Shown piece after piece: positions 24,166 through 62,155 of a stretch of 64,000 nucleotides of DNA. The notes beneath the pieces were generated by a model that worked only from the letters and a program-made list of their open reading frames with translations, did no database searches and was not told where the DNA came from. Position 1 is the first letter of the stretch. Each line of letters begins with the position of its first letter. This stretch comes from Castor canadensis (taxonomy: Eukaryota > Chordata > Mammalia > Rodentia > Castoridae), in NCBI RefSeq assembly GCF_047511655.1, contig NC_133402.1, positions 59,524,951 to 59,588,950 on the forward strand, written 5' to 3'. Position numbers and translations under genes: made by a program.

Positions 24166-24945
24166 TCAAAGCAAAGCAAGAGGAAAAAAGCAGCCACCCA
24201 CTGTCCCCCACTGAAGAAGATGGGTATCCAGATGCCAAAGTGGGGCGCTCATTCCTACCTGGAACAGGCGTCTGCGGGCCTTGCAGGCAGGGCGGGGAGG
24301 GCGCCGAGGGCGCGCGTGGGGACCCGGGCTCCTGCGTGGGCTCGGAGAGGGAGGCAGAGGCTGCAGCGGTGAGCCTGGGAAGGGCCTCGGAAGGTCGAAG
24401 ATGGAGTGCCAAGGGCCTCCGTCTGGGTCGTCGCTGGGCGATGGCATCGGGCCCAGGCACCAGGGGCTGGACAGCCTTGCGCTCAGGACGCCGGGGTCCC
24501 AGTCCTCTTCGTAGGCCGGTCGTTGGGCGGCGGCCGGGTAGAAGAAGCCGTGCTGGACGCCGCCGTCCTCCATGGGAGCGCCCGCGAAGGCGCCCAGCTC
24601 CAGGCCATCGGGCCAGTGTCCCTGCGCTCCCAGGTGCTGCTCGGCGAAGTCCAGGAGGCCCTCAGGGACGACGATGAGCTTGTGTCCCTGCAGCGCGACG
24701 GTGAGGACGTTGGCGGGCCCGGGCTCCAGCACCAGGTCGACGTGGCCCAGGGGCACCCGCAGGGCGCAGCCGGCGGCCAGGACCACCAGGGAGGTGGTGG
24801 GGTGTTGCAGGGCGAGCAGCGGGCCGGGGTCGGGGCCGGCGGGCTGGTCCAGTCGGGGGCGCTTGGCAGGGCCGGGCCCTGCGGGCTGCGGTGCCCACCC
24901 GGGCTCAGGGTGGGCGCTGGGGCTGCGGGGCCGGATGCCCACCAT
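24166..24945 (-). CDS. PRR23: PRR23 copy A (proline-rich protein 23)
   Basis: A single-exon frame of 259 residues. It is recognised by the PRR23/DUF2476 layout as I remember it: N-terminal RPRSPSAHP (residues 5-13), a basic nuclear-signal-like AKRPRL (27-32), a hydrophobic core LVVLAAGCALRVPLGHVDLV (53-72), SPLQPLPPSPSP (192-203) and a basic end CKARRRLFQ (221-229). The start is the ATG that begins MVGIRPRSP, in a CCACATGG context. The same frame stays open 62 codons upstream, but that part is not conserved in the family. No biochemical function is known. The normal end is LFQE then stop. Here the codon after Q229 is GTA and translation runs 30 further residues. The CAG/GTAGGA junction at 24259/24258 also looks like a splice donor. 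The protein is identical to copy B. Confidence 0.88.
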   Translation of the reverse strand: MVGIRPRSPSAHPEPGWAPQPAGPGPAKRPRLDQPAGPDPGPLLALQHPTTSLVVLAAGCALRVPLGHVDLVLEPGPANVLTVALQGHKLIVVPEGLLDFAEQHLGAQGHWPDGLELGAFAGAPMEDGGVQHGFFYPAAAQRPAYEEDWDPGVLSARLSSPWCLGPMPSPSDDPDGGPWHSIFDLPRPFPGSPLQPLPPSPSPRRSPGPHARPRRPPRPACKARRRLFQVGMSAPLWHLDTHLLQWGTVGGCFFPLALL

Positions 24946-25020
24946 GTGGACGCGTGCGGGCTCCCGGGGCCTGGCGACGCGGTGGGTCGTGCACGGGTGA
25001 CCGTCACGGGTGGCTGCCAC
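24240..25020. other. CpG-rich block over PRR23-A
   Basis: Very GC- and CpG-rich, in sharp contrast to the AT-rich flanks. It coincides with the coding region and its 5' edge. The same islands occur at 34170-34950, 44100-44870 and 61370-62470. Confidence 0.8.
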
Positions 25021-25173
25021 TCTAGGTGGGCGAGTGGGGCCTACAGTCCTGTCGTCTGGCAGTCTCTGGGCACCGTCTAGGCCTCGCACCTTGTAGTCTT
25101 TGGCCGTCCTCACGCAGAGCTGGATGTGCACAGGAGTGCTGAAACCGTCTGCCAGAAGACCCCAGCACCCTCT

Positions 25174-25235
25174 GTATATATACTCAGCTTCCAGCCTTAG
25201 CTCCGCCCAGGGGCGTGGCCTACTGGGGATTGGTC
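25174..25235 (-). promoter_or_regulatory. Predicted PRR23-A promoter: TATA, GC box, CCAAT
   Basis: Reading toward the gene on the minus strand: CCAAT (plus-strand attggtc, 25229-25235), two GC/KLF-type boxes (ggggcgtggcc at 25210-25220, ctccgccc at 25201-25208) and a TATA box (gtatatatac, 25174-25183). A start site would fall near 25145-25150, giving a leader of about 200 nt. Confidence 0.6.
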
Positions 25236-26382
25236 AGTGCAGTGCTTTGGATGAAGGCTTCCTGGAAGTGTGGGTAGAAAATTTCTTGAATAGCCTTTTA
25301 TGGTTTTTAATGCTTTTATCCTTGCTTAACAAAGTAAGAGCCCACCCAATCTTGTAACTGTTTGCCTATGCCTGATCTCTCTGTTTAAGTTTCTTATAAA
25401 TGAAAGTCACAAGTGTTCTCACTGATAATATAGAAACATAGAAGATAGCTGAACTGGTTTAAGAACATAACGCCCCTAAACTTGACATGATAATTATGCA
25501 AACTACATAAATGAATATTGTCTTCTTATAAAAAGAAGATAGTTTATTTCAAATAATTATCAATATCTGTGAAAACAGAGAAGTTTCTATTAAATAACTG
25601 AAACTGTTAAAAAAAGAACATTTTCCTTTCCGTGTCCTTTAAAAAGGGAAATTATAATTTAAAACGATATTTAGTAAAGAAAATTTGAAAAGTATAAAAT
25701 GTTTAAGTTTGATCAACCTCCAGCATGAAGTGTGCCACTACCCGTGGACCCGATCCCTTGCTGGAGTCTATGGTGCTGCGCTCTAGGCAGGCGCTCTGCA
25801 CTGGAGCCACTCTGCCAGCTATGGTGTTAACTCCTTCTTGTGAATTTTTCTTTGGTTCTTTTAACATTTCTTGGGTTTCTTTTTGAGAATGGTTAATGAA
25901 AAGATCTTCAATTTGATCACATATCAGTGAACAGTCATCAAGGAAACTGAAATATCAGATTTTTTTCTTTTATTTGCCTCGATTTCTTCCTTTAGCTCTA
26001 TGATTCTACTCATTTTCAGTGTAAATTTGTTTATCTTTTGTTGATCTTCCACTTGCTCTTAGCCTGAAGGCGGAGAAGCACTCTTTGGTTGATTATCCAA
26101 AGCAATATTGACATCTTTTTGCAGTGGCCATCTTGTAATTTGCCATCTTGGATCTGCCTTCCTGGAGTCTGCCATCTTGAAGTCTGCCATCTTGCAGGCT
26201 GCCATCTTGGAACTATCTAATGTCTAAGATTTCCCAGAAGTCTATGAAAAAGATCTTCTGTATCATCACCCATCATTCCTTCTCCAGCTCATGTACGAAT
26301 CTGTCAAAATTTTTTTCATTTATGACAGAAATTAAGAATACAATTTTTACGTTGGCAAAAGGTTTTAAAATATAATGAAGTG
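25236..26382. other. Upstream flank of PRR23-A
   Basis: AT-rich. It includes an ID-like remnant at about 25760-25822 ('aggcaggcgctctgcactgg') and the GCCATCTT repeat at 26127-26208. Read on the minus strand, the part around 25850-26080 resembles a decayed coiled-coil-like coding remnant of a retroelement. The family is uncertain. Confidence 0.45.
26126..26215. repeat. 15-bp minisatellite of YY1-type motifs, unit 1
   Basis: GCCATCTT (reverse AAGATGGC, the YY1 core) starts at 26127, 26142, 26171, 26186 and 26201, with a decayed copy (gccttcct) at 26156. The spacing is 14-15 bp. It lies about 0.9 kb upstream of the predicted PRR23-A promoter. It is copied in unit 2 at 36056-36137. Unit 3 has only about three degenerate copies (45970-46005). 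Confidence 0.85.
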
Positions 26383-26505
26383 AAGCTGGGTATGATGGGG
26401 CCCATCTGCCATCCCAGCACTTGGGAAGCTGAGAGAGCAGTATTGTGAGTTCATGACCAGCCTGGGCTACAATGTAAGGCATCCCTGTGTCAAAAATCAA
26501 AAAAC
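26383..26505 (+). mobile_element. B1-like SINE, unit 1
   Basis: 'aagctgggtatgatggggcc', 'cccagcacttgggaagctga', 'gaccagcctgggctacaatg'. The orthologous copies are at 36312-36434 and 46163-46290. Confidence 0.85.
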
Positions 26506-27246
26506 AGCAACATCAAGGCAAAACGAAACAAAAACAAAGAGAAAATTACTTCAGTTTTTTGTTGGAGGTTAAGTTGTGATTATTAAAGAAGAGAAGTTAA
26601 CTTTTTTCCTTTGAAACTTGGTATTTGACCAGCCTTATATTGAGTGTAAAGGTTCATTTATCCTCACAAGTAGTTCAGAGAAAGGAAGTGAATTTTAAAA
26701 AATTAAATATACAGTTTATGTTGGATATGGGACTTAACCATAGGCCTGTCTACCTTTATAATAGGGACCTTTGATTTTTTTAACTCATACTTTATGTGAA
26801 AACATTAGATATGTAGCTTCTAGGTCCTTTGCCACTCTCTCAAGTTTAGGGTTTCTCCTTCTCATTCCTTGAACAGTTTCTCCTCTTACTCTGTTTCTCT
26901 CTCCCTCATTGATTTGGTCATAATTCCTGCTGATTTCAAAATATGCCTGGGTGGTTCTTCCAAAACTTTGGTTTATCTCCATCTGTACCATTCTCATTCA
27001 ATCCAGAGTCCCTATCCTACTTCCTAGTCATTATTTCTGCTTGTGTTATAGGTACCTCAAATGAGACACATCTAATTGAACTCATATATATATTTTTAAA
27101 ATAATTTTTTCCCCTCAAGGTCTTTGCAACCTCAGAAAATAAAAATTTGCTTTTAAAAATAATGCTCAGTCTCCAAACCCTCAATTTATTCTCTGAATTA
27201 CCCCCTGAGTCTTCCTCTCTTTTTACTCTGAGAAATCCTGTTTTCT
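26506..27246. other. Unique sequence, unit 1
   Basis: AT-rich. It contains the empty-site equivalent (about 26695) of the L1 insertion seen in unit 3. No gene. Confidence 0.5.
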
Positions 27247-27365
27247 AGCCAGGTGTGGTGGCATAAATCTATAATATCAGCACTCACAAGACTGACGCAT
27301 GTGGTTTGAGGGATTGAAGCCAGTCTGGACTACATAGGGATACCCTTTCTCAAAAATCAATATCC
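27247..27365 (+). mobile_element. B1-like SINE, unit 1
   Basis: 'agccaggtgtggtggcataa' to 'accctttctcaaaaatcaa'. Also at 37176-37294 and, diverged, at 52962-53080. Confidence 0.8.
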
Positions 27366-28570
27366 AAGAAAATGATACTTCAGATCACTCTTCCTGCCAC
27401 TGTTTTCATAAGATGGTATCATTTCTTGTGGGAATTATTACACTCCATGAAGGTAATGATTTTTAACTGATTTGTTCTTGGCTGTATTGCCAGAATTTGG
27501 AAAAATGTCTGTACATACTAGGTACTTAATGATTGAGTGAAGTTTTCTGACATTACATCTTGAGTGTCCTCATTTCTTATCTCTGTGATAATGCCCCCAT
27601 CTTGGTGCTCACCATCTCCATTTCCAACAATCACATGGGAGAACAGATACTGCTGTCTAATATCTGTGACCTTATTTCATATATGTAAGTATTTTATATA
27701 TTTTTGGCCTGCTGCTTAGAGTTATGGATGCCTTCTTTATTCCAGCACAGTATTTCCGTTTTTCACTTCTCCCCAGTCTATGGTTTAAGATCTTAATTAT
27801 ATTTACCCTCCAACGTTTACATATTTCATACTTGGCAACTTACTTCATTCCTATTTAAAGCTGCCATATTGTGTAATATTTTTCATTGCTACACTATTTT
27901 ATTCTCTCATGTCCTCAAATTGCATTTATTTGAAATATCCTATAACTGACAGTCTATAACTGACAGTCTACCTATCTACTATTCCAGAGAGCAATTTTTC
28001 TTTTCCTTTTCTCAGGCTCACTCTCATTTATTCCCACTTACTGTGATTTGTTTCCTTATGTGTTCTTTAATTTTGGATTAAGAATTAAGAATCACTGGGA
28101 CATTATTACCAATAAGATTCTTAGCCCCAGCTATTAAATATATTCTCAGAGAAGGTTTGTTTTGCTTTTTCCAGGTCTACCATCAACTAGGGAATATCTT
28201 AAAGTAAATTCTCACCTTTTACCCTCAAAGCACACGTATTTCATCCTTTCTCAAGCCTGAGAAAGACATGTTTCATTCTCATTTCCTTCTGTACTGAGCC
28301 CCCACCCCTTTTTTTGTTAGCTTACTTACAAGAGTTACCACGTTTTGGAAGTCAGGGTGTGTGACCATGGAAGTTTCCTTCTGTTTTCCATAAGTAGGCT
28401 CTTACAACCACAGTTCTAGGTTACCTTAACTTCTCAGTTACCCTCGAACACACACTGACCTCTGGGATTCATGATTTGTTACCATTTTTGGCTTTAGGCA
28501 ATTTTGCTTATATTTTTATAAGCTGTGTGTGCCTTTAAAAAGAGTGACATTTTTTTCTCCATCACTTTCA
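27366..28570. other. Unique sequence, unit 1
   Basis: No gene is recognised. A 16-base word (tataactgacagtcta) is directly repeated at about 27950 and 27966. Confidence 0.45.
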
Positions 28571-28772
28571 AGAATTTGTTTTTTTTTTGCGGTACTGGGC
28601 CCTGAATTTGGGGCCTACATTTTGAGCCACTCCACCAGCCCTTTTTTATAATGGATTTTTTTCAAGATAGGGTCTTGGAACTATTTGCCCTGGCCAGCTT
28701 TGAACCACAATCCTCCTGATCTCTGCCTTCTGAGTAAGTAGGATTACAGGTGTGAGCTGCCAGCCTTCAGCC
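28571..28772 (-). mobile_element. Composite SINE private to units 1 and 2
   Basis: A reverse ID/7SL composite between two copies of 'caagaat(t/g)tt'. Unit 3 has the uninterrupted site (about 54280), so it inserted after the old duplication. Confidence 0.8.
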
Positions 28773-28883
28773 TCAAGAATGTTGTTTTTGATGGTTCCTT
28801 AGGACTGTTTGGTCACATATTGCAGAAAATGAATGTCCTTAGTGTCTAGATTATGAAGCTCTTTGAATAGAAAGTTTGCAGAT

Positions 28884-29911
28884 ATAAAGGAAATGCAAAT
28901 TAAAACCACGCTAAGATTCCATCTCACCCCTGTTAGAATAGCCATCATCAACAACACCACCACCAACAGGTGTTGGCGAGGATGCGGGGAAAAAGGAAGC
29001 CTCTTACACTGTTGGTGGGAATGTAGACTAGTACAACCACTCTGGAAAAAAATTTGGAGGCTACTTAAAAAGCTGGACATTGATCTACCATTTGATCCAG
29101 CAATACCACTCTTGGGTATTGCTGTTACTCCAGAGGCACCTGCACATCCATGTTTATTGCGGCACTATTCACAATAGCCAAGTTATGGAAACAGCCAAGA
29201 TGCCCCACCACTGACGAATGAATTAAGAAAATGTGGTATCTATACACAATGGAATTTTATGCAGCCATGAAGAAGAATGAAATGTTATCATTCACTGGTA
29301 AATGGATGGAATTGGAGAACATCATTCTGAGTGAGGTTAGCCTGGCCCAAAAGACCAAAAATCGTATGTTCTCCCTCATATGTGGACATTAGATCAAGGG
29401 CAAACACAACAAGGGGATTGGACTTTGAGCACATGATAAAAGCGAGAGCACACAAGGGAGGGGTGAGGATAGGTAAGACACCTAAAAAATTAGCTAGCAT
29501 TTGTTGCCCTTAACGCAGAGAAACTAAAGCAGATACCTTAAAGCAACTGAGGCCAATAGGAAAAGGGGACCAGGTACTAGAGAAAAGGTTAGATCAAAAA
29601 GAATTAACCTAGAAGGTAACACCCATGCACAGGAAATCAATGTGAGTCAATGCCCTGTATAGCTATCCTTATCTCAACCAGCAAAAACCCTTGTTCCTTC
29701 CTATTATTGCTTATACTCTCTCTACAACAAAATTAGAAATAAGGGCAAAATAGTTTCTGCTGGGTATTGAGGGGGGGGAGAAGGAGGGGGCGGAGTGGGT
29801 GGTAAGGGAGGGGGTGGGGGCAGTGGGGAGAAATGAACCAAGCCTTGTATGCACATATGAATAATAAAAGAAAAATGAAAAAAAAATGAAAAAAAAAACA
29901 ATAAAAAAAAA
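28884..29911 (+). mobile_element. 5'-truncated L1 (1.03 kb) private to units 1 and 2
   Basis: The ORF2 C-terminus (the Cys motif [18 protein letters not shown] is encoded at about 28970-29025), the 3' UTR with its G-rich tract and the A tail. Perfect 15-bp target duplications agaaagtttgcagat lie at 28869-28883 and 29912-29926. Unit 3 has the empty site near 55590. Confidence 0.95.
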
Positions 29912-29926
29912 AGAAAGTTTGCAGAT

Positions 29927-30475
29927 GGCTGTTGGCCCTCTCTGGTGAATGACCAGATAATTAGGCAGAGACTTTTGATCACTTGACTGCTGTGCTATTA
30001 GCAGAGACAGGAGGATTTCTTGAGTTGTGCTGGGAACTGTGGATAAGATGAGTGAACAAAGCGATTCCATCTTCTGGAGGCAGAGCATGGATAGGAAATA
30101 CTGAACCATACTGAAAGGGAGGATGCCAAGATGGCAGATTTGAAGTACCCAGCGATTGCTACCTTCTCCAGGGGACAGCAGTAGCTGAAGAGCAGCTACT
30201 GTTCGAAGCTCACAGCTGGAAAGAAGGTGGCTGGAGTCTCAGATGAAATGTTGGACTTGGATTTTGAGTGACACTGGAGTGAGACTTTGGGAGTGTGGGG
30301 ATGGATGGATATATGTTGTAGTGTGAGGAGGACATGAATTTTGGTGGGCAGGTGCCAAAGGCTCTGGTTTGTGTATGGTGTGAATATAGTTTGTCTCTCA
30401 AAATTCTGTACTTCTTCCTTTCCTCCCTCTTCCACCTTCCCCATTCCTTTCTTTCTTTCCTTTCTTTAAAGAAAT
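29927..30475. other. Unique sequence, unit 1
   Basis: No gene. 'gccaagatggcagat' at about 30124 carries a YY1-type core like that of rodent L1 5' ends. The same stretch occurs at about 40053 and 55808. Confidence 0.4.
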
Positions 30476-31125
30476 TTATTTTTGGTGGTACTGAGGATTC
30501 AACTGAAGGTCTCATGCTTGCTAAGCAGGTGCTCTATCTCTTGAACCACTCTGATAGCCTTTTTAATTTTTGAGATAGGGTCTCACTTAATGCCTGGGCT
30601 GATCATCCTTCTATTTATGACTCCCATTGTTTCTTGGATGACAGGCATATGTTACTGTGTCCAACTTTTTTTTTGTGCTAGTTCTTGAGTTTGAACTAAG
30701 AGCCTTGTTTTTGCAACTCCACCAGCCTTGTGTTCAGCCTTTATTAGTTGAGTTGGGTTCTCACTAATTTTTGCCTGAGCTCTCCTCAAACCAAGATCCT
30801 CCTAATCTGTGTTTCCCAAATGGTAGGATCACAGACCTGAACCACTGTATTAGCTTCCTTCCCTCCCTCCATTTCTTCTCCCTCCCTTCCTCCCTTACTT
30901 GTCTCCTCTCCTCTCTTTTCTCTTTATTTTCTTGTAGTGGGGATTGAACCCATGGTCTCTCACTTGCTCTCTACCACTTGTGCTATGCCCCCACCCTTTT
31001 TGGTTGTATTTTGTTGTTGAGATAGGGTCTCATTAACTTTGCCCAGGCTGGCCTCATATTCTCAATCCTCCTATCTCTTTCTCCCAAGTTGCTGGCATTA
31101 CATGCATGTGTCTCCATGCTCAGCT
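30476..31125 (-). mobile_element. SINE cluster, absent from unit 3
   Basis: Three reverse composite SINEs: about 30476-30660, 30662-30857 and 30930-31125, with C/T-rich DNA between. Unit 3 lacks about 1.1 kb here (30412-31499 has no match between 56098 and 56110). Confidence 0.7.
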
Positions 31126-31307
31126 TTCACAATGTTGTGCTGGAAGTTTGGTCTCAGTGTGGTGATGTTAGGAGATGGTGGAAATTCTAAGAGGAGGAGA
31201 ACTACTGGAAATTAATTAGGTCCCTGAAGGCATCACCCTAAAAAAAGATTAGTGCAGTTCCCATAGGACGCTGGTCAGTTCCTGCAAGAATAGTTTGCTA
31301 TAAGGCA

Positions 31308-31440
31308 GGGTGGGGTGGTATATTCCTTTAATCCCAGCACTTGGGAGCTGGAGGCAGAATGACCTGAAGTATTAGGCCAGCCTAGGTTAAACAATGAGCT
31401 CCAGTTAGTATAGGCTACAATACCAGGTCACAAAAAACCA
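31308..31440 (+). mobile_element. B1-like SINE
   Basis: 'cagggtggggtggtatattc', 'atcccagcacttgggagctg', 'taggccagcctaggttaaac'. Confidence 0.75.
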
Positions 31441-31581
31441 AAAAGAAGGAGCAGAAAAGATAAAAGGAGGAGAAAGAGAGTGTTGTTATGAAAAGAGAAA
31501 ACCTGGCCCCTGAATTTTTCTGGTTGCTTTTATCACCATGTGACATCTCCATCTTTTTTATTATTTATTTATTTATTTATT

Positions 31582-31768
31582 TTGCAGTACTGGGGCTTGA
31601 ACTCAGGCTCTACACCTTGAGCAACTCTACCAGTCCATTTTTGTATAGGGTTTTTAGAGATAGGGTCTCTAGAACTATTTGCCTGCACTGTCTTGGAACC
31701 CATATCCTCCTGATCTCTGCCTTCTGAGTAGCTAGGATTACAGGCGTGAGCCACCAGCACCAGGCCAG
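31582..31768 (-). mobile_element. Chimeric SINE at the unit 1/unit 2 junction
   Basis: Its left part ('gctctacaccttgagcaact') shares with the SINE at 56152 the same deletion of the ID centre. Its right part ('cctgatctctgccttctgag', 'agccaccagcaccaggccag') matches the SINE at 21618. This is what recombination between those two SINEs would leave. An identical copy is at 41511-41697. Confidence 0.75.
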
Positions 31769-34094
31769 TGCTTTTCTTCAGGTGCCTGCAGAACTGCTGC
31801 ATCCATCTGCTTTAGAAATGTTCTAGATATTTGGTTCCAGGAATCATGGAGAGCTGCAGACTTTCCTCCTTAATAGAGCCTGGTGCTGAAAAGGACCTCC
31901 AGCAATTTTGTCCCTTCTAGTACTTGTGGATGAGATGTACCAAGTGGTCAAGTGTACAGGAATGCATCATGTTTATTATTCCCCTATTGTTCCAGGCCTA
32001 AATTATTTCCCTCTCATTTTTACTGCCCTGGACCAGTACCTCCCAAACAGACAATTGCACTTAACCTCTAATTTAAACTGCTTTCCAGGGAATTCACTAA
32101 GGCATTCCTCATGTAACCCCCACTTTACTCAAGAGGACCTCCCTTGCTGCCTGCTAGTCATCACCCTGTCTTACTGCCCCAAGGCATTGAATCTCTATTC
32201 CAATCTAACATCATAGATTATTTTCCTATTCTAGAAGGTAAATATTCTACATATTTAAATGACATACCATACACTCACATTTTTATGTGTGGCTTTCTTC
32301 ACTTTACATTATGCTTGTGAGATTAATTCGAGGTTGTTTAAAAAGGTAGGGTGTAACTTTTCTGTGTGGAGAAAATTTGATTCTCCTGATATTTCCTTAG
32401 TTGCACTGAAACAGAATCAGCTTTGAGACACCAGGTTGAAAGATTATAACTTAAATTCAGGTTTTACCTATCCTTCCCATTGAAAAGGTGAAAACCATAA
32501 TATTTGATATGTGATCAATTGAGAGAGAGAGTGAGATTGACAATGTATGGAAATAATGAATGAAATTAACTAATTTTTAAAATAAAAAATTTTATTTATT
32601 AAAAATGCATACGTTAATTATGTAAAGGCATTTCATTGTGATATTTACCTACATGAATATAATGTACTTTAATCAAATTCCCCCCACCCATGTTACTCTT
32701 TCTTAGCCTCCCTTCCTCCTTCCCCTCCTTTTTAACAGTTTTTGTGGGTTTCATTATGTTTTTCCATGCATATACATACATATGTATATAGTATAAAGTT
32801 ACCACTTGTACACGTGAAAAATTACATTACTATACCGAAATGAGGAAAGTGAAACATTGAAATTGAAACACTATTGGCAAACAATTTAAAGTGTTGCACC
32901 ATCTATCACTCTAAAATTCAGGAACACCCATGTGATTAAAGTAGAGCAAAGCTGGTTTGGAATGAAATAACACAGTTTCCTCTCTTCCTTTCCTGCCATG
33001 AAATAGTGCTCTTGCTATTTTTTAAATTTTAATTTTAGAAATATTTCCACTACACTCATGTATCATTTATTCACTTATTTATTCAATAGATATTTATTCA
33101 GATGGCTGAGATCCAGAAAGAGGTGTTAAGGAGAAAGAGGGTAATTGGTCTACTCAGGAGGAAGAGGTCATGACGATCCTGTTTCAAAACCCACCTGGGC
33201 AAACAGTTTTGTTTTTTTTCTCAAAAGTACCCAACAAAAATAATAAGGGCTGGATGGTGGAGTGACTCAGTTGGGAGAGCATTTGCCTAGTAAGTGTGAG
33301 GCCCTGAGCTCAAACTCTAGTACCACTAATAAATAAATAAATAAAACACATAAAGAAAAAAATTAAAAAGCTTAGAAAATAAAACTGGTGACCAGAAGTA
33401 CTTCTCAGGTACAAGCTCAAGCCTGTAATCCTAGGTACTCTGGAGAGATAAGGAGGATCACCATTGGAGGCCAAGCCTGGCAAAAAGTTCTGGAGACCCT
33501 ATCTCAACCAGTAAAAAGGCAGGTGACCTGGCAGGCACCTGTGGTCCCAGCTACCAGGGAAACATAAATAGGAGGGTGCCCGCTGGGCATAAAACGTGAG
33601 ATCCTATGCATGCAGACATGAACTGAAAACAAAAAGGGCTGGGGAGTTGCTCAACTGGTGGACAGAATGCCTGGCAAGTGGGGGACTCTGAGTTCAAACC
33701 CCAGGGCCGCCAAAAAAAAAAAAAAAAAAAGTACCTCTGGGGATGTTGGGGAAACGCAGGGGTAAATTCATCATTAAAAAAAGAAGGAAAACAACAACGT
33801 GGATTGGAGAACAGAGAAGCATGGAGAAACGGTGAAAACCAGGGTAAAGCTGAAAGTATATTGAGGTGAGTTTTAAGCAAGAAGTGGGGTGAAACACGGG
33901 AACCAGAAATGCCTAGAAGGAACAACTCAGCCAGCAGAGCAAGGGAAGTCAAAGTCCATGTTGGCTGTCTGTCTGTCTGTCCTCCCTGGGATTCCCAAAG
34001 GCGCTTTCCTGGAGCGGCTTGTCTCATGGATGTCTTTATGGGCTTCTGACCAAGGCGTCCTACTAAAAAGGCAAAGGAGAAACCGACTAGAACG

Positions 34095-34874
34095 TCAAAG
34101 CAAAGCAAGAGGAAAAAAGCAGCCACCCACTGTCCCCCACTGAAGAAGATGGGTATCCAGATGCCAAAGTGGGGCGCTCATTCCTACCTGGAACAGGCGT
34201 CTGCGGGCCTTGCAGGCAGGGCGGGGAGGGCGCCGAGGGCGCGCGTGGGGACCCGGGCTCCTGCGTGGGCTCGGAGAGGGAGGCAGAGGCTGCAGCGGTG
34301 AGCCTGGGAAGGGCCTCGGAAGGTCGAAGATGGAGTGCCAAGGGCCTCCGTCTGGGTCGTCGCTGGGCGATGGCATCGGGCCCAGGCACCAGGGGCTGGA
34401 CAGCCTTGCGCTCAGGACGCCGGGGTCCCAGTCCTCTTCGTAGGCCGGTCGTTGGGCGGCGGCCGGGTAGAAGAAGCCGTGCTGGACGCCGCCGTCCTCC
34501 ATGGGAGCGCCCGCGAAGGCGCCCAGCTCCAGGCCATCGGGCCAGTGTCCCTGCGCTCCCAGGTGCTGCTCGGCGAAGTCCAGGAGGCCCTCAGGGACGA
34601 CGATGAGCTTGTGTCCCTGCAGCGCGACGGTGAGGACGTTGGCGGGCCCGGGCTCCAGCACCAGGTCGACGTGGCCCAGGGGCACCCGCAGGGCGCAGCC
34701 GGCGGCCAGGACCACCAGGGAGGTGGTGGGGTGTTGCAGGGCGAGCAGCGGGCCGGGGTCGGGGCCGGCGGGCTGGTCCAGTCGGGGGCGCTTGGCAGGG
34801 CCGGGCCCTGCGGGCTGCGGTGCCCACCCGGGCTCAGGGTGGGCGCTGGGGCTGCGGGGCCGGATGCCCACCAT
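34095..34874 (-). CDS. PRR23: PRR23 copy B (proline-rich protein 23)
   Basis: A 259-residue single-exon frame identical in protein to copy A, including the read-through tail after LFQ and the splice-donor-like CAG/GTAGGA. The start is the same conserved MVGIRPRSP codon. It lies in the hybrid middle unit. Its downstream DNA (lower coordinates) comes from the unit 3 side and its upstream DNA from the unit 1 side, so the recombination point falls in or next to this gene. Its promoter is a copy of that of A. Expression cannot be told apart from A by coding sequence. Confidence 0.88.
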   Translation of the reverse strand: MVGIRPRSPSAHPEPGWAPQPAGPGPAKRPRLDQPAGPDPGPLLALQHPTTSLVVLAAGCALRVPLGHVDLVLEPGPANVLTVALQGHKLIVVPEGLLDFAEQHLGAQGHWPDGLELGAFAGAPMEDGGVQHGFFYPAAAQRPAYEEDWDPGVLSARLSSPWCLGPMPSPSDDPDGGPWHSIFDLPRPFPGSPLQPLPPSPSPRRSPGPHARPRRPPRPACKARRRLFQVGMSAPLWHLDTHLLQWGTVGGCFFPLALL

Positions 34875-35102
34875 GTGGACGCGTGCGGGCTCCCGGGGCC
34901 TGGCGACGCGGTGGGTCGTGCACGGGTGACCGTCACGGGTGGCTGCCACTCTAGGTGGGCGAGTGGGGCCTACAGTCCTGTCGTCTGGCAGTCTCTGGGC
35001 ACCGTCTAGGCCTCGCACCTTGTAGTCTTTGGCCGTCCTCACGCAGAGCTGGATGTGCACAGGAGTGCTGAAACCGTCTGCCAGAAGACCCCAGCACCCT
35101 CT

Positions 35103-35164
35103 GTATATATACTCAGCTTCCAGCCTTAGCTCCGCCCAGGGGCGTGGCCTACTGGGGATTGGTC
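35103..35164 (-). promoter_or_regulatory. Predicted PRR23-B promoter
   Basis: An exact copy of the TATA (35103-35112), GC boxes (35130-35149) and CCAAT (35158-35164) arrangement of PRR23-A, at +9,929. Confidence 0.6.
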
Positions 35165-38100
35165 AGTGCAGTGCTTTGGATGAAGGCTTCCTGGAAGTGT
35201 GGGTAGAAAATTTCTTGAATAGCCTTTTATGGTTTTTAATGCTTTTATCCTTGCTTAACAAAGTAAGAGCCCACCCAATCTTGTAACTGTTTGCCTATGC
35301 CTGATCTCTCTGTTTAAGTTTCTTATAAATGAAAGTCACAAGTGTTCTCACTGATAATATAGAAACATAGAAGATAGCTGAACTGGTTTAAGAACATAAC
35401 GCCCCTAAACTTGACATGATAATTATGCAAACTACATAAATGAATATTGTCTTCTTATAAAAAGAAGATAGTTTATTTCAAATAATTATCAATATCTGTG
35501 AAAACAGAGAAGTTTCTATTAAATAACTGAAACTGTTAAAAAAAGAACATTTTCCTTTCCGTGTCCTTTAAAAAGGGAAATTATAATTTAAAACGATATT
35601 TAGTAAAGAAAATTTGAAAAGTATAAAATGTTTAAGTTTGATCAACCTCCAGCATGAAGTGTGCCACTACCCGTGGACCCGATCCCTTGCTGGAGTCTAT
35701 GGTGCTGCGCTCTAGGCAGGCGCTCTGCACTGGAGCCACTCTGCCAGCTATGGTGTTAACTCCTTCTTGTGAATTTTTCTTTGGTTCTTTTAACATTTCT
35801 TGGGTTTCTTTTTGAGAATGGTTAATGAAAAGATCTTCAATTTGATCACATATCAGTGAACAGTCATCAAGGAAACTGAAATATCAGATTTTTTTCTTTT
35901 ATTTGCCTCGATTTCTTCCTTTAGCTCTATGATTCTACTCATTTTCAGTGTAAATTTGTTTATCTTTTGTTGATCTTCCACTTGCTCTTAGCCTGAAGGC
36001 GGAGAAGCACTCTTTGGTTGATTATCCAAAGCAATATTGACATCTTTTTGCAGTGGCCATCTTGTAATTTGCCATCTTGGATCTGCCTTCCTGGAGTCTG
36101 CCATCTTGAAGTCTGCCATCTTGCAGGCTGCCATCTTGGAACTATCTAATGTCTAAGATTTCCCAGAAGTCTATGAAAAAGATCTTCTGTATCATCACCC
36201 ATCATTCCTTCTCCAGCTCATGTACGAATCTGTCAAAATTTTTTTCATTTATGACAGAAATTAAGAATACAATTTTTACGTTGGCAAAAGGTTTTAAAAT
36301 ATAATGAAGTGAAGCTGGGTATGATGGGGCCCATCTGCCATCCCAGCACTTGGGAAGCTGAGAGAGCAGTATTGTGAGTTCATGACCAGCCTGGGCTACA
36401 ATGTAAGGCATCCCTGTGTCAAAAATCAAAAAACAGCAACATCAAGGCAAAACGAAACAAAAACAAAGAGAAAATTACTTCAGTTTTTTGTTGGAGGTTA
36501 AGTTGTGATTATTAAAGAAGAGAAGTTAACTTTTTTCCTTTGAAACTTGGTATTTGACCAGCCTTATATTGAGTGTAAAGGTTCATTTATCCTCACAAGT
36601 AGTTCAGAGAAAGGAAGTGAATTTTAAAAAATTAAATATACAGTTTATGTTGGATATGGGACTTAACCATAGGCCTGTCTACCTTTATAATAGGGACCTT
36701 TGATTTTTTTAACTCATACTTTATGTGAAAACATTAGATATGTAGCTTCTAGGTCCTTTGCCACTCTCTCAAGTTTAGGGTTTCTCCTTCTCATTCCTTG
36801 AACAGTTTCTCCTCTTACTCTGTTTCTCTCTCCCTCATTGATTTGGTCATAATTCCTGCTGATTTCAAAATATGCCTGGGTGGTTCTTCCAAAACTTTGG
36901 TTTATCTCCATCTGTACCATTCTCATTCAATCCAGAGTCCCTATCCTACTTCCTAGTCATTATTTCTGCTTGTGTTATAGGTACCTCAAATGAGACACAT
37001 CTAATTGAACTCATATATATATTTTTAAAATAATTTTTTCCCCTCAAGGTCTTTGCAACCTCAGAAAATAAAAATTTGCTTTTAAAAATAATGCTCAGTC
37101 TCCAAACCCTCAATTTATTCTCTGAATTACCCCCTGAGTCTTCCTCTCTTTTTACTCTGAGAAATCCTGTTTTCTAGCCAGGTGTGGTGGCATAAATCTA
37201 TAATATCAGCACTCACAAGACTGACGCATGTGGTTTGAGGGATTGAAGCCAGTCTGGACTACATAGGGATACCCTTTCTCAAAAATCAATATCCAAGAAA
37301 ATGATACTTCAGATCACTCTTCCTGCCACTGTTTTCATAAGATGGTATCATTTCTTGTGGGAATTATTACACTCCATGAAGGTAATGATTTTTAACTGAT
37401 TTGTTCTTGGCTGTATTGCCAGAATTTGGAAAAATGTCTGTACATACTAGGTACTTAATGATTGAGTGAAGTTTTCTGACATTACATCTTGAGTGTCCTC
37501 ATTTCTTATCTCTGTGATAATGCCCCCATCTTGGTGCTCACCATCTCCATTTCCAACAATCACATGGGAGAACAGATACTGCTGTCTAATATCTGTGACC
37601 TTATTTCATATATGTAAGTATTTTATATATTTTTGGCCTGCTGCTTAGAGTTATGGATGCCTTCTTTATTCCAGCACAGTATTTCCGTTTTTCACTTCTC
37701 CCCAGTCTATGGTTTAAGATCTTAATTATATTTACCCTCCAACGTTTACATATTTCATACTTGGCAACTTACTTCATTCCTATTTAAAGCTGCCATATTG
37801 TGTAATATTTTTCATTGCTACACTATTTTATTCTCTCATGTCCTCAAATTGCATTTATTTGAAATATCCTATAACTGACAGTCTATAACTGACAGTCTAC
37901 CTATCTACTATTCCAGAGAGCAATTTTTCTTTTCCTTTTCTCAGGCTCACTCTCATTTATTCCCACTTACTGTGATTTGTTTCCTTATGTGTTCTTTAAT
38001 TTTGGATTAAGAATTAAGAATCACTGGGACATTATTACCAATAAGATTCTTAGCCCCAGCTATTAAATATATTCTCAGAGAAGGTTTGTTTTGCTTTTTC

Positions 38101-38812
38101 CAGGTCTACCATCAACTAGGGAATATCTTAAAGTAAATTCTCACCTTTTACCCTCAAAGCACACGTATTTCATCCTTTCTCAAGCCTGAGAAAGACATGT
38201 TTCATTCTCATTTCCTTCTGTACTGAGCCCCCACCCCTTTTTTTGTTAGCTTACTTACAAGAGTTACCACGTTTTGGAAGTCAGGGTGTGTGACCATGGA
38301 AGTTTCCTTCTGTTTTCCATAAGTAGGCTCTTACAACCACAGTTCTAGGTTACCTTAACTTCTCAGTTACCCTCGAACACACACTGACCTCTGGGATTCA
38401 TGATTTGTTACCATTTTTGGCTTTAGGCAATTTTGCTTATATTTTTATAAGCTGTGTGTGCCTTTAAAAAGAGTGACATTTTTTTCTCCATCACTTTCAA
38501 GAATTTGTTTTTTTTTTGCGGTACTGGGCCCTGAATTTGGGGCCTACATTTTGAGCCACTCCACCAGCCCTTTTTTATAATGGATTTTTTTCAAGATAGG
38601 GTCTTGGAACTATTTGCCCTGGCCAGCTTTGAACCACAATCCTCCTGATCTCTGCCTTCTGAGTAAGTAGGATTACAGGTGTGAGCTGCCAGCCTTCAGC
38701 CTCAAGAATGTTGTTTTTGATGGTTCCTTAGGACTGTTTGGTCACATATTGCAGAAAATGAATGTCCTTAGTGTCTAGATTATGAAGCTCTTTGAATAGA
38801 AAGTTTGCAGAT

Positions 38813-46862: not shown

Positions 46863-48050
46863 ATGACGGGAAGACAGAAAAAACAGGGAAACCAGTTTCC
46901 CCACAGCAAAAAATTAGTACAGGAACCAGAGGGGAATGAAGAGAACAGAAACTCAGATCCAGACTCCAACAAAATGAAGATAAACTATGCCAAAGGACCC
47001 AATGAAGCCCACAAGAATAATTTAAAAGAAGGCATACTACAAGTACTCAATGAGAATTTTATAGAGATGATACTGGATAGGGTCAACCAAAATGTACAGG
47101 AGACACTAAAGAAATTCCAAGACAACAAAAATAGAGAATTTGAAAAACAAAAGAAGAAATAAAGGAAACCATAGAAACACTGTATAAACACCAAAGTGAA
47201 AGAGAGAACACAATGAATAAACGGATAAATGAACTCAGGACAAAAATAGACAACATTAAAGAGGAAAACTGCCAGGATATGGAAAACCTCAGAAAAAAGA
47301 ATGAAACAGAACTGCAAAACAAAACAGAAGGCCAATCCAGCAGAATAGAACAAACAGAAGACAGAATCTCAGAACTTGAAGATGAAACAGTAATTAAAGG
47401 AAAAACCAAAGAACTATTAATTAAACAACTCAAGACCTGTGAAAAGAAAATGCAAGAACTCACTGACTCCATCAAAAGACCAAACTTGAGAATCATGGGC
47501 ATCGAAGAAGTAGAAGAGGTGCAAGTGAAGGGAATGCATAATATATTCAACAAAATAATAACGGAAAATTTCCCAAATCCAGAGAAAGATATTCCCATAC
47601 AGATGCAAGAGGCCTCCAGGACACCAAACAGATCAAAATAGAACTACTCCACGAAATATCATCATTAAAACAACAAGTTCAGAAACTAAGGAAAGAATAT
47701 TGAAGTCTGTAAGAGAGAAAAAACAAGTAACATACAAAGATAAACCCATCAAAATCACAGCAGACTTCTCAACAGTAACATTAAAAGCAAGAAGAGCGTG
47801 GGGTGAGATCTTCCGGGCACTGAATGAAAATAACTTCAACCCCAGGATACTCTACCCAGCAAAGCTATGATTCAAAATAGATGAAGCAATAAAAGTCTTC
47901 CATGATAAGCAGAAACTAAAACAATGTGTGACCACAAAGCCACCACTACAAAAGATGATTCTGCACACAGAAAGTGACACCCAACTTAACCATGAAAAGG
48001 CAAGCAGCACCAAACCACAGGAAAAGAAAAAGCAAGACAGTAGAGAGTAA
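46863..48050 (+). pseudogene. L1 ORF1, broken
   Basis: This encodes the RNA-binding, coiled-coil ORF1 protein of L1. The start codon at 46863 opens MTGRQKKQGNQFPHSKKLVQ. A heptad-rich coiled coil follows (about 47213-47420, INELRTKIDNIKEENCQDME), then RRM-like text (PNLRIMGIEEVEEVQVKG, about 47485-47540) and the C-terminal domain (VTYKDKPIKITADFSTVTLK, about 47729-47790). It ends near 48050. There is a one-base frame change in an A-rich run near 47148, a stop at 47639-47641, and another stop in the C-terminal domain near 47868. Confidence 0.85.
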
Positions 48051-48100
48051 CCTCAACTTAGGTACACACAATCACACCTTCAAACAACTAAGACAACTAA

Positions 48101-51100
48101 ATGGCAGGAATCACCACATACCTATCAGTACTAACGCTTAATGTTAATGGACTTAATTCACCCATCAAAAGACACCGTTTGACAAAATGGATGAAAAAAG
48201 AAGATCCAACAATTTGTTGCTTACAGGAGACTCATCTCACCGACAGAAATAAGCATAGGCTTAGGATGAAAGGCCGGAAGAAGATTTACCAAGCCAATGG
48301 CCCCCGAAAACAGGCAGGAGTAGCAATACTTATCTCTGACAAAGTAGACTTCAAACCTACATTGATCAAATGAGATAAAGAAGGACATTCCATACTAATA
48401 AAAGGGGAAACAGACCAAAAGGAAATAATAATCATCAATCTGTATGCACCCAATGTCAATGCACCCAATTTCATCAAACATACCCTGAAAGACCTAAAAG
48501 CATATATAAACGCCAACACAGTGGTTGTGGGAGACTTTAACACCCCATTATCATCAATAGATAGGTCATCCAAACAAAAAATCAATAAAGAAATCCAAGA
48601 TCTAAAATATGCAATAGATCAAATGGACCTAGTAGATGTCTACAGAACATTTCATCCAACTTCTACACAATATACATTCTTCTCAGCAGCCCATGGAACC
48701 TTCTCCAAAATAGATCATATCCTAGAGCACAAAGCAAGCCTCAGCAAATATAAGAAAATACAAATAATACCATGCGTACTATCTGACCATAATGCAGTAA
48801 AAGTAGAACTCAACAACAATAGTAAAGACAAAAAACATGCAAACAGCTGGAAACTAAATAACTCATTACTTAATGAAGGATGGATCATCGATGCAATAAA
48901 AGAGGAAATTAAAAAGTTCCTGGAAGTCAATGAAAATGAAAACTCAACCTACCAGAACCTATGGGACACAGCTAAGGCAGTCTTGAGAGGAAAGTTTATA
49001 GCCATGAGTGCATATATTAAAAAGATTGAAAGATTCCAAATCAATGACCTAACGATACATCTCAAACTCCTAGAAAAACAAGAACAAGCAAATTCCAAAA
49101 CAAATAGGAGAGAAATAATAAAAATAAGAGCTGAAATCAATGAAATAGAAACCAAAAAAACCATACAAAGAATTAATGAAACAAAAAGTTGGTTCTTTGA
49201 AAAAATAAACAAGATCCATAGACCCTTGGCAAACCTGACTAAAATGAGGAGAAAAAAAAACCCAAATTAGTAGAATTAGGAATGCAAAAGGGGAGATAAC
49301 AACAAACACCATGGAAGTCCAGGAAATCATCAGAGACTACTTTGAGAACCTATATTCAAATAAATTTGAAAATCTTAAAGAAATGGACAGATTTCTAGAT
49401 ACATATGATCATCCAAAACTGAACCAAGAGGAAATTAATCACCTGAATAGACCTATAACACAAAATGAAATTGAAGCAGCAATCAAGAGTCTCCCCAAAA
49501 AGAAAAGTCCAGGACCTGATGGATTCTCTGCTGAATTCTATCAGACCTTTAAAGAAGAACTGATACCAACCCTCCTTAAACTGTTCCATGAAATAGAAAG
49601 GGAAGGAAAACTGCCAAACACATTTTATGAAGCCAGTATTACACTTATCCCAAAACCAGGCAAAGACACCTCCAAAAAGGAGAACTATAGGCCAATCTCC
49701 TTAATGAACATTGACGCAAAAATCCTCAACAAAATAATGGCAAACCGAATTCAACAACACATCAAAAAGATTATTCACCACGACCAAGTAGGCTTCATCC
49801 CAGGAATGCAGGCATGGTTCAACATATGAAAATCAATAAACGTAATAAACCACATTAACAGAAGCAAAGACAAAAACCACTTGATCATCTCAATAGATGC
49901 AGAAAAAGCCTTTGATAAGATCCAACATCATTTCATGATAAAAGCTCTAAGAAAACTAGGAATAGAAGGAAAGTTCCTCAACATTATAAAAGCTATATAT
50001 GACAAACCTACAGCCAGCATTATACTTAATGGAGAAAAACTGAAACCATTCGCTCTAAAATCAGGAACCAGACAAGGATGCCCACTATCTCCACTCCTAT
50101 TCAACATAGTACTGGAATTCCTAGCCAGAGCAATTAGGCAAGAAGAAGGAATAAAAGGAATACAAATAGGTAAAGAAACTGTCAAAATATCCCTATTTGC
50201 AGACGACATGATCCTATACCTTAAAGACCCAAAAAACTCTATTCAAAAGCTTCTAGACATCATCAATAGCTATAGCAAGGTAGCAGGATATAAAAATCAA
50301 CATAGAAAAATCATTAGCATTTCTATACACTAACAATGAGCAAATGGAAAAAGAATGTATGAAAACAATTCCATTTACAATAGCCTCAAAAAAATCAAAT
50401 ACCTAGGTGTAAACCTAACAAAAGATGTGAAAGACCTCTACAAGGAAAACTATACACTTCTGAAGAAAGAGATTGAGGAAGACTATAGAAAGTGGAGAGA
50501 TCTCCCATGCTCATGGATTGGTAGAATCAACATAGTAAAAATGTCGATACTCCCTAAAGTAATCTACATGTTTACCATCAAAATTCCAGTGACATTCATT
50601 AAAGAGATTGAAAAATCTACCATGAAATTTATATGGAAACACAAGAGGCCACGAATATCCAAGGCAATACTCAGTCAAAAGAACAATGCAGGAGGTATCA
50701 CAATACCTGACTTCAAACTATATTACAAAGCAATAACAATAAAAACAGCATGGTACTGGCACAAAAACAGACATGAAGACCAGTGGAACAGAATAGAGGA
50801 CCCAGATATGAAGCCACACAACTATAACCAACTTGTCTTTGACAAAGGTGCTAAAAATATACAATGGAGAAATAGCAGCCTCTTCAACAAAAACTGCTGG
50901 GAAAACTGGTTAGCAGTCTGCAAAAAACTGAAACTAGATCCATGTATATCACCCTATACCAAGATTAACTCAAAATGGATCAAGGATCTTAATATCAGAC
51001 CCCAAACTCTTAAGTTGATACAGGAAAGAGTAGGAAATACTCTGGAGTTAGTAGGTATAGGTAAGAACTTTCCCAATGAAACCCCAGCAGCACAGCAACT

Positions 51101-51949
51101 AAGAGATAGCATAGATAAATGGGACCTCATAAGGCTAAAAAGCTTCTGTTCATCAAAAGAAATGGTCTCTAAACTGAAGAGAACACCCACAGAGTGGGAG
51201 AAAATATTTGCCAACTATACATCAGACAAAGGACTGATAACCGGAATATATAGGGAACTTAAAAAACTAAATTCTCCCAAAACTAATGAACCAATAAAGA
51301 AATGGGCAAGTGAACTAAACAGAACTTTCTCAAAAGAAGAATTCAAATGGCCAAAAAACACATGAAAAACTGCTCACCATCTCTAGCAATAAAGGAAATG
51401 CAAATTAAAACCACGCTAAGATTCCATCTCACCCCTGTTAGAATAGCCATCATCAGCAACACCACCAACAACAGGTGTTGGCGAGGATGTGGGGAAAAAG
51501 GAACCCTCTTACACTGTTGGTGGGAATGTAAATTAGTACAACCACTCTGGAAAAAAATTTGGAGGCTACTTAAAAAGCTGGACATCGATCTACCATTTGA
51601 TCCAGCAATACCACTCTTGGGGATATACCCAAAAGACTGTTACTCCAGAGGCACCTGCACATCCATGTTTATTGCGGCACTATTCACAATAGCCAAGTTA
51701 TGGAAACAGCCAAGATGCCCCAGCACTGACGAATGGATTAAGAAAATGTGGTATCTATACACAATGAAATTTTATGCAGCCATGAAGAAGAACAAAATGT
51801 TATCATTCGCTGGTAAATGGATGGAATTGGAGAATATCATTCTGAGTGAGGTTAGCCCGGCCCAAAAGACCAAAAATCATATGTTCTCTCATATGTGGAC
51901 ATTAGATCAAGGGCAAACACAACAAGGGGATTGGACTTTGAGCACATGA
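48101..51949 (+). pseudogene. L1 ORF2 (endonuclease and reverse transcriptase), broken
   Basis: The start is at 48101 (MAGITTYLSVLTLNVNGLNS). The APE-type endonuclease is visible as QETHLT (about 48222) and SDHNAV (about 48783). Reverse transcriptase motifs are [10 protein letters not shown] (about 49640), GFIPGMQ (about 49790) and the catalytic FADD (about 50195). The C-terminal Cys motif [18 protein letters not shown] lies at about 51477-51530. The frame is interrupted by a stop at 48371-48373, a frame change in the A-run near 49255, a stop at 49827-49829, frame changes between about 50295 and 50395, and one near 51355. Confidence 0.9.
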
Positions 51950-52419
51950 TAAAAGTGAGAGCACACAAGGGAGGGGTGAGGATAGGTAAGACACCTAAAA
52001 AACTAGCTAGCATTTGTTGCCCTCAATGCAGAGAAACTAAAGCAGATACCTTAAAAGCAACTGAGGCCAATAGGAAAAGGGGAACAGGAACTAGAGAAAA
52101 GGTGAGATCAAAAAGAATTAACCTAGAAGGTAACACCCACGCACAGGAAATCAATGTGAGTCAACGCCCTGTATAGCTATCCTTATCTCAACCAGCAAAA
52201 GCCCTTGTTCCTTCCTATTATTGCTTATACTCTCTCTACAACAAAATTAGAAATAAGGGCAAAATAGTTTCTGCTGGGTATTGGCGGGGGGGGGGGGGGA
52301 GAGGGAGGGGGCGGAGTGGGTGGTAAGGGAGGGGGTGGGGGCAGTGGGGAGAAATGAACCAAGCCTTGTATGCACATATGAATAATAAAAGAAAAAGGAA
52401 AAAAAAATTAAATACTTGG

Positions 52420-59337: not shown

Positions 59338-59476
59338 ATACAAAAATGAATAAACAAAATGCACACAAAAGGAGTAACAATTTGATTGGCAGACTTTTTT
59401 TTAATCTGGAACAAAAATAGTAAAACAATGGATTAATATATTGAAATGTCATTTTAGAATTAAGAATGAGTATTTA

Positions 59477-59710: not shown

Positions 59711-59726
59711 AAGAATGAGTATTTAG

Positions 59727-59842: not shown

Positions 59843-60890
59843 TGGAATAAAAACATGTTTCAGGCATGTAAACTGAGAGATTATCACACAACACATGTAA
59901 AAACACATGTTTATACTTACAGAATCAAGATGGTTTACTACAGATAGGATACAGTAGAAATAACTATTAAAAATGAGGAATATTGAGGATGACTTAGGGA
60001 GTGTAAAAACAAAAATACAAGAAAGAATTGGTAAGGTATGGTGATAAATTTTATTGACATTTTGAAATGAAATGATCTTATTGACTACAGTTTTACAAGT
60101 AACATTTTATTTTCTTCATAGAAATGGAGCAAATGTGGTATTAACAATTTAATATTACAAGTTCGGCTTGCATGAGAAAAAAAACCTCTGGTCAGAATTT
60201 GAAAGGTATAAAATAATATGGAAGAGAAGTAATGGAAACATTTTCCATCCATGCATTGAAATCACCAGATGAACAGATTTAAAAAGAAGTATATACTTAG
60301 GCATGCTGATAATCTACACAAAACTCATTCAAAAGTGAGAACTAGATGGACTAGAGGACAGCGTCTCAGAAGGTGAAGAGATCGCTATGAAGAAACACTA
60401 TAAATCACGTACAGTAATATCATACAAGGAGATGCCCGAGAGCAGTTAGAAACACCAGGGAGGAGATAAGTCATGGCTAAAAGTCTTCATGAATGCATGG
60501 AAAGCATACAAGGAACTCACAACATAAGAAATGGTGTGATTTATTGGTTTGGGGAGAAACAGGAAGGGCAGCGATATGAAGTTGGAGAAACAGTGGATTT
60601 TTAAGAGAAAATAGCTGATGCAAAACAAAGGGGGATGATGGAACGCCTTGAGAATGAGTTTATGAAGTCCAGAAATCTCAAAGTACATTTTCTGGTCTCC
60701 TTAGGAAATATTTGATTTCAAAGACAGGAGGTAGAATGTTTTCCTTATCTGCTACCATTGGAAGTGTGCATGGAAAACACAATTGCCTGCACACAATTCC
60801 AGGTTGCTGGATGCTCCATGTGAAGGTCTCTGAGAATCACACAGGGCCTCCAGGAAAGTGGCCAGAGTTGTGTTAGTGTCCGAGCCAGCG
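59843..60890. other. Unique sequence downstream of PRR23-D
   Basis: No gene. A minus-strand AATAAA (plus-strand tttatt near 60540) lies about 0.92 kb past the PRR23-D stop and could end its transcript. Confidence 0.4.
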
Positions 60891-60891
60891 G

Positions 60892-61462
60892 TTCATTCAT
60901 TCCTGAACAGACAAGAAATTTCACTAACAAATCACAGGAGAAACAAACTGCCACCTCAAACCCAACCTAAATGAAAAATGCAACTGTCCATGGACCCCCA
61001 AGGATGATGTTAATACGTAGGAGGTGCATGGAGTCCACCCGGTAGGATCACTAGTACCCCCAGCTAGATTGGGAAGGAATCCTGGAGCAGTTCATTCATT
61101 TCTAGAACAGGCAAGAAATTCTGCTCAAAAGTCACGGAGAAACAAACTGAAATCTCCAACCAAACCAAAACGAGAAACGCAGCTGCTCAGTGTCTCTGAA
61201 TGACGACGTCAGTATCTAGGTGGTGCATGAAGATCAACCCTGTAGATACCAGACAGCGAGCAACTGTGGAATGGTTCATGCATTCCAGGAGCAGGCAAGA
61301 AATCTGAAAAAAAAAAAAAATTAGAGGAGAAACAAACTCGAACCTCAAACCAACCCCGATGGAGTTGCCCAGTGTCCGCGAATGTAGATGTCACACCTCG
61401 GGGCGGTGCTCGGGACATACCTGCGACATCACGAGATGGCGAGGAATCGCGGGGCGCTCCAC
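60892..61462. repeat. Diverged tandem repeat, about 190-bp units, at the 3' flank of PRR23-D
   Basis: Three units start at 60892, 61091 and 61275 with ttcattcatt or ttcatgcatt followed by a form of 'ctggaacaggcaagaaat'. Each then carries 'ggagaaacaaact' and a 'gcatg/gtgct' block in the same order. A fourth start, at 61463, is the 3' end of the PRR23-D coding sequence itself ('tcactcctggaacaggcgtc'). The periods are 199, 184 and 188 bp. Confidence 0.8.
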
Positions 61463-62155
61463 TCACTCCTGGAACAGGCGTCTGCGGGCCTTGCAGGCAG
61501 GGCGGGGAGGGCGCCGAGGGCGCGCGTGGGGACCCGGGCTCCTGCGTGGGCTCGGAGAGGGAGGCAGAGGCTGCAGCGGTGAGCCTGGGAAGGGCCTCGG
61601 AAGGTCGAAGATGGAGTGCCAAGGGCCTCCGTCTGGGTCGTCGCTGGACGATGGCATCGGGCCCAGGCACCAGGGGCTGGACAGCCTTGCGCTCAGGACG
61701 CCGGGGTCCCAGTCCTCTTCGTAGGCCGGTCGTTGGGCGGCGGCCGGGTAGAAGAAGCCGTGCTGGACGCCGCCGTCCTCCATGGGAGCGCCCGCGAAGG
61801 CGCCCAGCTCCAGGCCATCGGGCCAGTGTCCCTGCGCTCCCAGGTGCTGCTCGGCGAAGTCCAGGAGGCCCTCAGGGACGACGATGAGCTTGTGTCCCTG
61901 CAGCGCGACGGTGAGGACGTTGGCGGGCCCGGGCTCCAGCACCAGGTCGACGTGGCCCAGGGGCACCCGCAGGGCGCAGCCGGCGGCCAGGACCACCAGG
62001 GAGGTGGTGGGGTGTTGCAGGGCGAGCAGCGGGCCGGGGTCGGGGCCGGCGGGCTGGTCCAGTCGGGGGCGCTTGGCAGGGCTGGGCCCTGCGGGCTGCG
62101 GTGCCCACCCGGGCTCAGGGTGGGCGCTGGGGCTGCGGGGCCGGATGCCCACCAT
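61463..62155 (-). CDS. PRR23: PRR23 copy D (proline-rich protein 23), canonical end
   Basis: A 230-residue single-exon frame that starts at MVGIRPRSP (CCACATGG context) and ends in the family's normal CKARRRLFQE followed by TGA. It differs from A/B only at Gly25 to Ser (next to the basic AKRPRL signal) and Pro170 to Ser. The frame is open 66 codons upstream, with a sequence unlike that upstream of A. It lies outside the 10-kb duplication and both flanks differ from A-C, yet the coding block is almost identical to theirs. Of the four it looks most like an ordinary PRR23 gene. Function is unknown; the basic stretch suggests a nuclear location, by inference only. Confidence 0.9.
   Translation of the reverse strand: MVGIRPRSPSAHPEPGWAPQPAGPSPAKRPRLDQPAGPDPGPLLALQHPTTSLVVLAAGCALRVPLGHVDLVLEPGPANVLTVALQGHKLIVVPEGLLDFAEQHLGAQGHWPDGLELGAFAGAPMEDGGVQHGFFYPAAAQRPAYEEDWDPGVLSARLSSPWCLGPMPSSSDDPDGGPWHSIFDLPRPFPGSPLQPLPPSPSPRRSPGPHARPRRPPRPACKARRRLFQE

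Follow-up and report, generated by a model that had tools for sequence, protein, structure and literature searches.

The GC-rich coding block of the mammalian Hsp70 genes was reportedly the subject of a gene conversion study by Kudla et al. in 2004. For HSPA1A/HSPA1B (Hsp70), the coding sequences are described as homogenised by gene conversion, and variation collects in the UTRs (PMC5865164). According to a review, conversion takes place mainly above 80% sequence identity and has a low rate below (PMC3924818); human conversion events are given an average length of 6.26 kb (PMC10172114). In the PRR23 family, the function of which is not known, expression in the testis is described for people and mice, and human PRR23A-C are reported to be testis-specific (PMC7436996).

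Here, we analysed a stretch of 64,000 nucleotides of Castor canadensis (contig NC_133402.1), referred to as the window, in which four PRR23 genes (A to D) are found as intact minus-strand reading frames (Table 1). The three copies scanned, A, C and D, match Pfam PF10630 (DUF2476), which we take to be the PRR23 family, at E-values of about 1e-55 and with 188.6-189.2 bits compared to a curated cut-off of 27, which assigns them to this family. A DNA search of the assembly (2,814,775,274 bases in 181 contigs) revealed five places, i.e. A to D and a fifth copy, E. The PF10630 search of the assembly, which scores best candidates only, gave 10 matches, two per gene, all confined to these five places, and each of the five copies exceeds the cut-off. 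Among bacterial and archaeal genome contigs, none of 386 pattern matches was a PRR23 relative by tblastn. As judged from the comparison of the copies, the PRR23 array very probably undergoes concerted evolution, in which repeated interlocus gene conversion was followed by a crossover inside a converted tract.

Table 1 Features of the PRR23 array and its surroundings. Positions refer to the window; fractions are matching positions unless stated otherwise.
Feature	Position	Strand	Description
PRR23 gene A	24166-24945	minus	259-aa ORF, 30-aa tail after ...RRRLFQ
PRR23 gene B	34095-34874	minus	coding sequence identical to A
PRR23 gene C	44023-44802	minus	259-aa ORF, 4 substitutions vs A
PRR23 gene D	61463-62155	minus	230-aa ORF ending in LFQE, without tail
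Fifth PRR23 copy E	86792-87537		contig 59611742-59612487, 24.6 kb beyond the window; 230-residue frame ending in LFQE
D block near-identical to A	61468-62213 (A 24258-25003)	minus	746 bp, 2 differences
D leader	62215-62357	minus	diverged homologue of A 25005-25135, 98/145
D 3' flank	61315-61388	minus	diverged colinear homologue of A 24136-24217, 52/82
Putative A-C conversion tract in A	23524-25003	minus	1,480 bp, 4 substitutions in 1479 aligned columns
Putative A-C conversion tract in C	43381-44860	minus	
Second A-C near-identity tract	21773-22327		12/555 differ; from segmentation
Exact 10,131-bp repeat, first copy	23784-33914		tandem period 9,929
Exact 10,131-bp repeat, second copy	33713-43843		tandem period 9,929
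Switch zone in unit B	33713-33914		C-like leftward, A-like rightward; within the A-C tract
Insertion splitting the C duplicon	46507-52402	plus	about 5.9 kb, ~18-bp target-site duplication, absent from A and B
tRNA-Ala-like Rfam hits (four)	6015-6089, 6577-6651, 11631-11706, 18540-18611		

Overall, A and C differ at 644 of 4,857 aligned columns. Outside the near-identical tract around the gene, the 3' side has 240 differences in 1792 positions and the 5' side 400 in 1586, with K2P distances of 0.148 and 0.312, respectively, and of 0.230 in the piece past the insertion in C. By these distances, A and C are evidently old duplicates, the surroundings of which have drifted 15 to 31% apart. A single-segment change-point model, which gains 236 log-likelihood units, delimits a segment (A 23487-25002) with 5 differences in 1,515 positions, and the longest stretch with at most four differences comprises 1479 columns, compared to a permutation maximum of 179 (n = 2000). 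Besides the reading frame, the tract takes in 58 bp upstream of the ATG and 642 bp downstream of the stop codon. Down to A 23524, this 3' flank shows no substitution, apart from which a 1-bp indel at 23986 and a difference in poly-T length near 23802 were found, and it is of ordinary composition (GC 0.49, CpG observed/expected 0.31; 23540-24255). The pair thus presents a near-identical tract within clearly diverged homologous flanks, the pattern expected from gene conversion.

The second tract of near-identity between A and C contains a single CpG and begins with ~60 bp that are similar to a repeat from elsewhere in the window. Its longest stop-free run comprises 108 codons, a length attained in 54 of 400 pieces drawn at random from the window, and had no match in a Pfam scan, and the tract looks non-coding. 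We read both A-C tracts as conversion tracts of different ages. The preliminary description of the locus had proposed sharp edges of identity at both ends of the reading frame and conversion (or very recent copying) that does not extend beyond the CpG-rich coding block. The 5' edge at A 25003 is indeed sharp in both the A-C and the A-D comparison, but on the 3' side the A-C identity runs on to A 23524, and a coding-only conversion is ruled out by the ordinary 3' flank included in the A-C tract together with the second tract.

The substitutions within the genes bear on the alternative that the blocks stayed alike without any exchange, through purifying selection or a low mutation rate, for which it speaks that the identity covers reading frames and that all four of these are intact. 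However, among the 229 shared codons, with about 186 synonymous sites, only one synonymous difference separates A from C and none separates A from D. Most differences are nonsynonymous, i.e. three of the four substitutions in C relative to A and both of those in the shared part of D, the edges of identity are sharp, and the 642 bp of 3' flank in the A-C tract also lack substitutions. Selection alone is therefore hardly credible, and we rule it out on the synonymous sites.

In the 746-bp block, C differs from both A and D at 4 positions, and the counts given in the preliminary description, about two differences between D and A and about four between C and A, were confirmed, as was the strong divergence of the A, C and D leaders just outside the block. 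Adjoining the block, the leaders of C and D align at 89 of 129 positions. The flank homology was scored against dinucleotide shuffles (n = 300), and each of the four D flank alignments (98/145, 89/129, 52/82 and 76/113) exceeded all of them, with a small margin for the colinear 3' flank of D and A (score 44, best shuffle 39). This means that the 3' flank of D, previously considered unrelated to those of A-C, is instead a diverged homologue of that of A. In the stronger downstream match between D and A (76/113), it is the second unit of a tandem repeat in D that aligns with A, so that this match is not colinear. The 3' flank of D (60900-61400) contains short tandem repeats (roughly 190 bp), which are about 70-75% alike. 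Farther upstream of D, homology was not significant, as 30 and 6 of 300 shuffles reached the A-D and C-D scores, respectively. Judging from these alignments, D is a relative still older than the A/C duplication and has its own promoter, and its comparison with A again reveals a near-identical block in diverged homologous flanks, albeit weak on the 3' side, as gene conversion would leave it.

Alternatively, D could be a recent insertion of an A- or C-type gene, either a retrocopy or a copied segment, rather than a converted locus. This would explain why the A-D identity stops abruptly at both ends, and D and E together do resemble a segment of ~1.27 kb with unrelated surroundings on the 5' side. 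However, the leader and the near 3' flank of D are colinear diverged homologues of those of A, which is unexpected for an inserted copy and differs from the unrelated flanks on both sides that characterise a retrocopy; moreover, the promoter and leader of D are those of E and not those of A. We consider such an insertion very improbable and reject it on the flank homology to A.

The fifth copy allows a comparison within the genome. D and E are 98.1% identical across 1,276 bp (D 61258-62532) including the promoter, with 6 differences in the 746 positions of the block, 1 in 319 upstream and 11 in 205 downstream. Beyond the ends of this segment, no significant homology was found, with 31, 127, 15 and 15 of 200 shuffles reaching the four scores (31 of 200 past D 62532); because of this, D and E may owe their similarity to the copying of a segment and are not a clean case of conversion. 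The promoter and leader of D group with E and differ from A by about a third, whereas in the coding block E (6/746) is no closer to D than A (2/746) is. Block and flanks of D thus give conflicting relationships, although the counts are small, and 2 compared to 6 differences in 746 are too few to rank the relatives of the D block firmly. Nine sites of the block vary among the five copies, three of which are informative, grouping D with E (A 24873), C with E (A 24758) and C with D (A 24438), and all three pairs of these sites are incompatible (four-gamete pattern, five copies). The discordance between block and leader of D and the three incompatible sites point to repeated gene conversion; since two of the three sites (A 24873 and A 24758) lie in a CpG context, recurrent mutation could in part mimic such an exchange. 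As far as it goes, the comparison with E agrees with conversion.

A and B represent a different case. They are 100% identical across 10,131 bp, 202 bp more than the tandem unit of 9,929 bp; this identity includes the flanks, so that the earlier picture of near-identical genes with diverged flanks applies to A-C and A-D but not to A-B. Likewise, gene conversion, put forward for all copies, would account for A-C and for the block shared by A/C and D, but A-B requires the duplication of a 9.9-kb unit. Where the units vary, B agrees with C at A 23523, at A 23802 and further left, and with A at A 23986 and further right, from which we conclude that B is apparently a hybrid unit. In A coordinates, the switch zone is A 23803-23985 (A 23523-24438 if bracketed by substitutions alone). 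An extra unit that is a hybrid of its two neighbours, with the switch in their shared tract, is what unequal crossover (NAHR) produces, and the switch zone is likely to be the crossover interval. With no difference in 9,929 bp, the A-B duplication would be very young; if 2.2e-9 substitutions per site and year are assumed, its age has an upper bound near 70,000 years by the rule of three.

The origin of B by unequal crossover is supported by the sequence, but an assembly loop would leave an identical structure. If the assembler had gone twice round a loop via the near-identical A-C tract, the window would hold three real genes. The perfect identity across 10,131 bp, the period running exactly from tract to tract and the switch inside the repeat would take the same form in a graph loop. 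However, unequal crossover predicts this structure as well, and the 70-Mb contig and the 181 contigs for 2.81 Gb suggest long reads, which would be able to span the 10-kb unit. Such an artefact therefore appears unlikely to us, though it is a serious contender.

The history that we favour, concerted evolution by conversion and crossover, starts with an old duplication that gave rise to copy 1, today's A, and copy 2, today's C. Interlocus gene conversion would then have overwritten A/C and D in the coding block, and A and C in both the coding block and the 3' flank; both conversions are strongly supported. After conversion, the hybrid unit B would have arisen when copies 1 and 2 recombined by unequal crossover within the converted tract. 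The tract ends were probably set by the loss of homology: the flanks of D are well below 80% identity to A and the block is well above. The exchange between D and A would be confined to the coding block because a good resemblance between them exists only there, and the A-C similarity downstream would be high enough for the tract to run on past the frame. At the 5' edge, C resembles D over a few bases more than A does, and at A 24438 both C and D carry T, while the C of A is shared by E. As E carries the base of A at this site, the shared bases do not amount to evidence for a simple D-C-A chain or for any one direction of conversion.

With regard to regulation, the CCAAT, GGGCGG and TATATA elements are located 288, 263 and 237 bases upstream of the ATG in A and 284, 259 and 233 bases upstream in C, and 48 of 50 bases match between the two at A 25240-25191. 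D shares the CCAAT and GGGCGG elements but lacks a match to TATA. The suggestion that regulation drifts in each copy is hence only partly right: the regulation of D probably differs in kind from that of A/C, but A and C themselves keep the order and the near-equal spacing of their elements and have therefore not freely drifted. The A and D blocks have a GC content of 0.748 and a CpG observed/expected ratio of 0.77, compared to 0.432 and 0.26 in the window, and GC at fourfold sites is 0.82. The high GC of the block would fit GC-biased conversion but is no test of it. In the leaders, the CpG ratio is 0.68 for D, 0.49 for A and 0.23 for C. A rather doubtful extension of our reading is that repeated conversion makes the single block shared by two promoter classes a self-maintaining homology island, in which conversion from D/E restores CpG to blocks with leaders that are losing it. 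Equally tentatively, the classes would be a TATA type (A/B/C), to which the 30-aa tail was added, and a CpG-rich TATA-less type (D/E).

The C-terminal tail of 30 residues is present in A (24166-24258), B (34095-34187) and C (44023-44115) and missing from D, E and the Pfam profile. In both fragments, the profile end (259/259) falls on residue L of RRRLFQ, so that the family match extends to the C-terminus; past this point, D stops 3 residues on and A 32 residues on. A profile search with the tail alone found no match. Since D ends in LFQE near the profile end and the tail of A-C lies outside the profile, we infer that D retains the older, family-usual C-terminus. Near the A-C tail, the block ends in CAG|GTAGGA, a candidate splice donor by eye.

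Among the neighbouring elements, the insertion in C is presumably LINE-1-like, although a Pfam scan of four ORFs, from the insertion and one more, gave nothing at E-values up to 0.1. The six Rfam hits are all tRNA-like; the four tRNA-Ala-like ones are probably tRNA-derived SINEs rather than tRNA genes. A run of 96 N, possibly a gap, is located just outside the window (coordinates -435 to -340).

The family name used here is linked to other PRR23 genes via the equation of DUF2476 with PRR23 made above. The array resembles human PRR23A/B/C and mouse Prr23a1-a3 in being tandem and multi-copy (PMC7436996). In the literature searched, a single paper mentions both PRR23 and gene conversion, and the passages concerned deal with beta-defensins rather than with conversion of PRR23. 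Conversion among the PRR23 copies would be a neat instance of a known, ordinary process, and at 0.7 to 1.5 kb, its tracts are by no means long given the average of human events (PMC10172114). The locus is a compact example in that conversion, tract ends limited by heterology and a crossover seeded in the converted tract can all be read from one sequence, and PRR23 copy counts and trees built from the coding sequence alone will mislead. The LHB/CGB cluster is similar in that its GC-rich tandem duplicates cluster within species as a result of conversion, but the evidence described there includes two species, whereas the PRR23 case comes from one genome (PMC2478647). The closest precedent is Hsp70, with intronless tandem genes and homogenised coding sequences (PMC5865164), from which our locus differs in that PRR23 is uncharacterised, the A-C tract extends well into the 3' flank and the duplication of a 9.9-kb unit is added.
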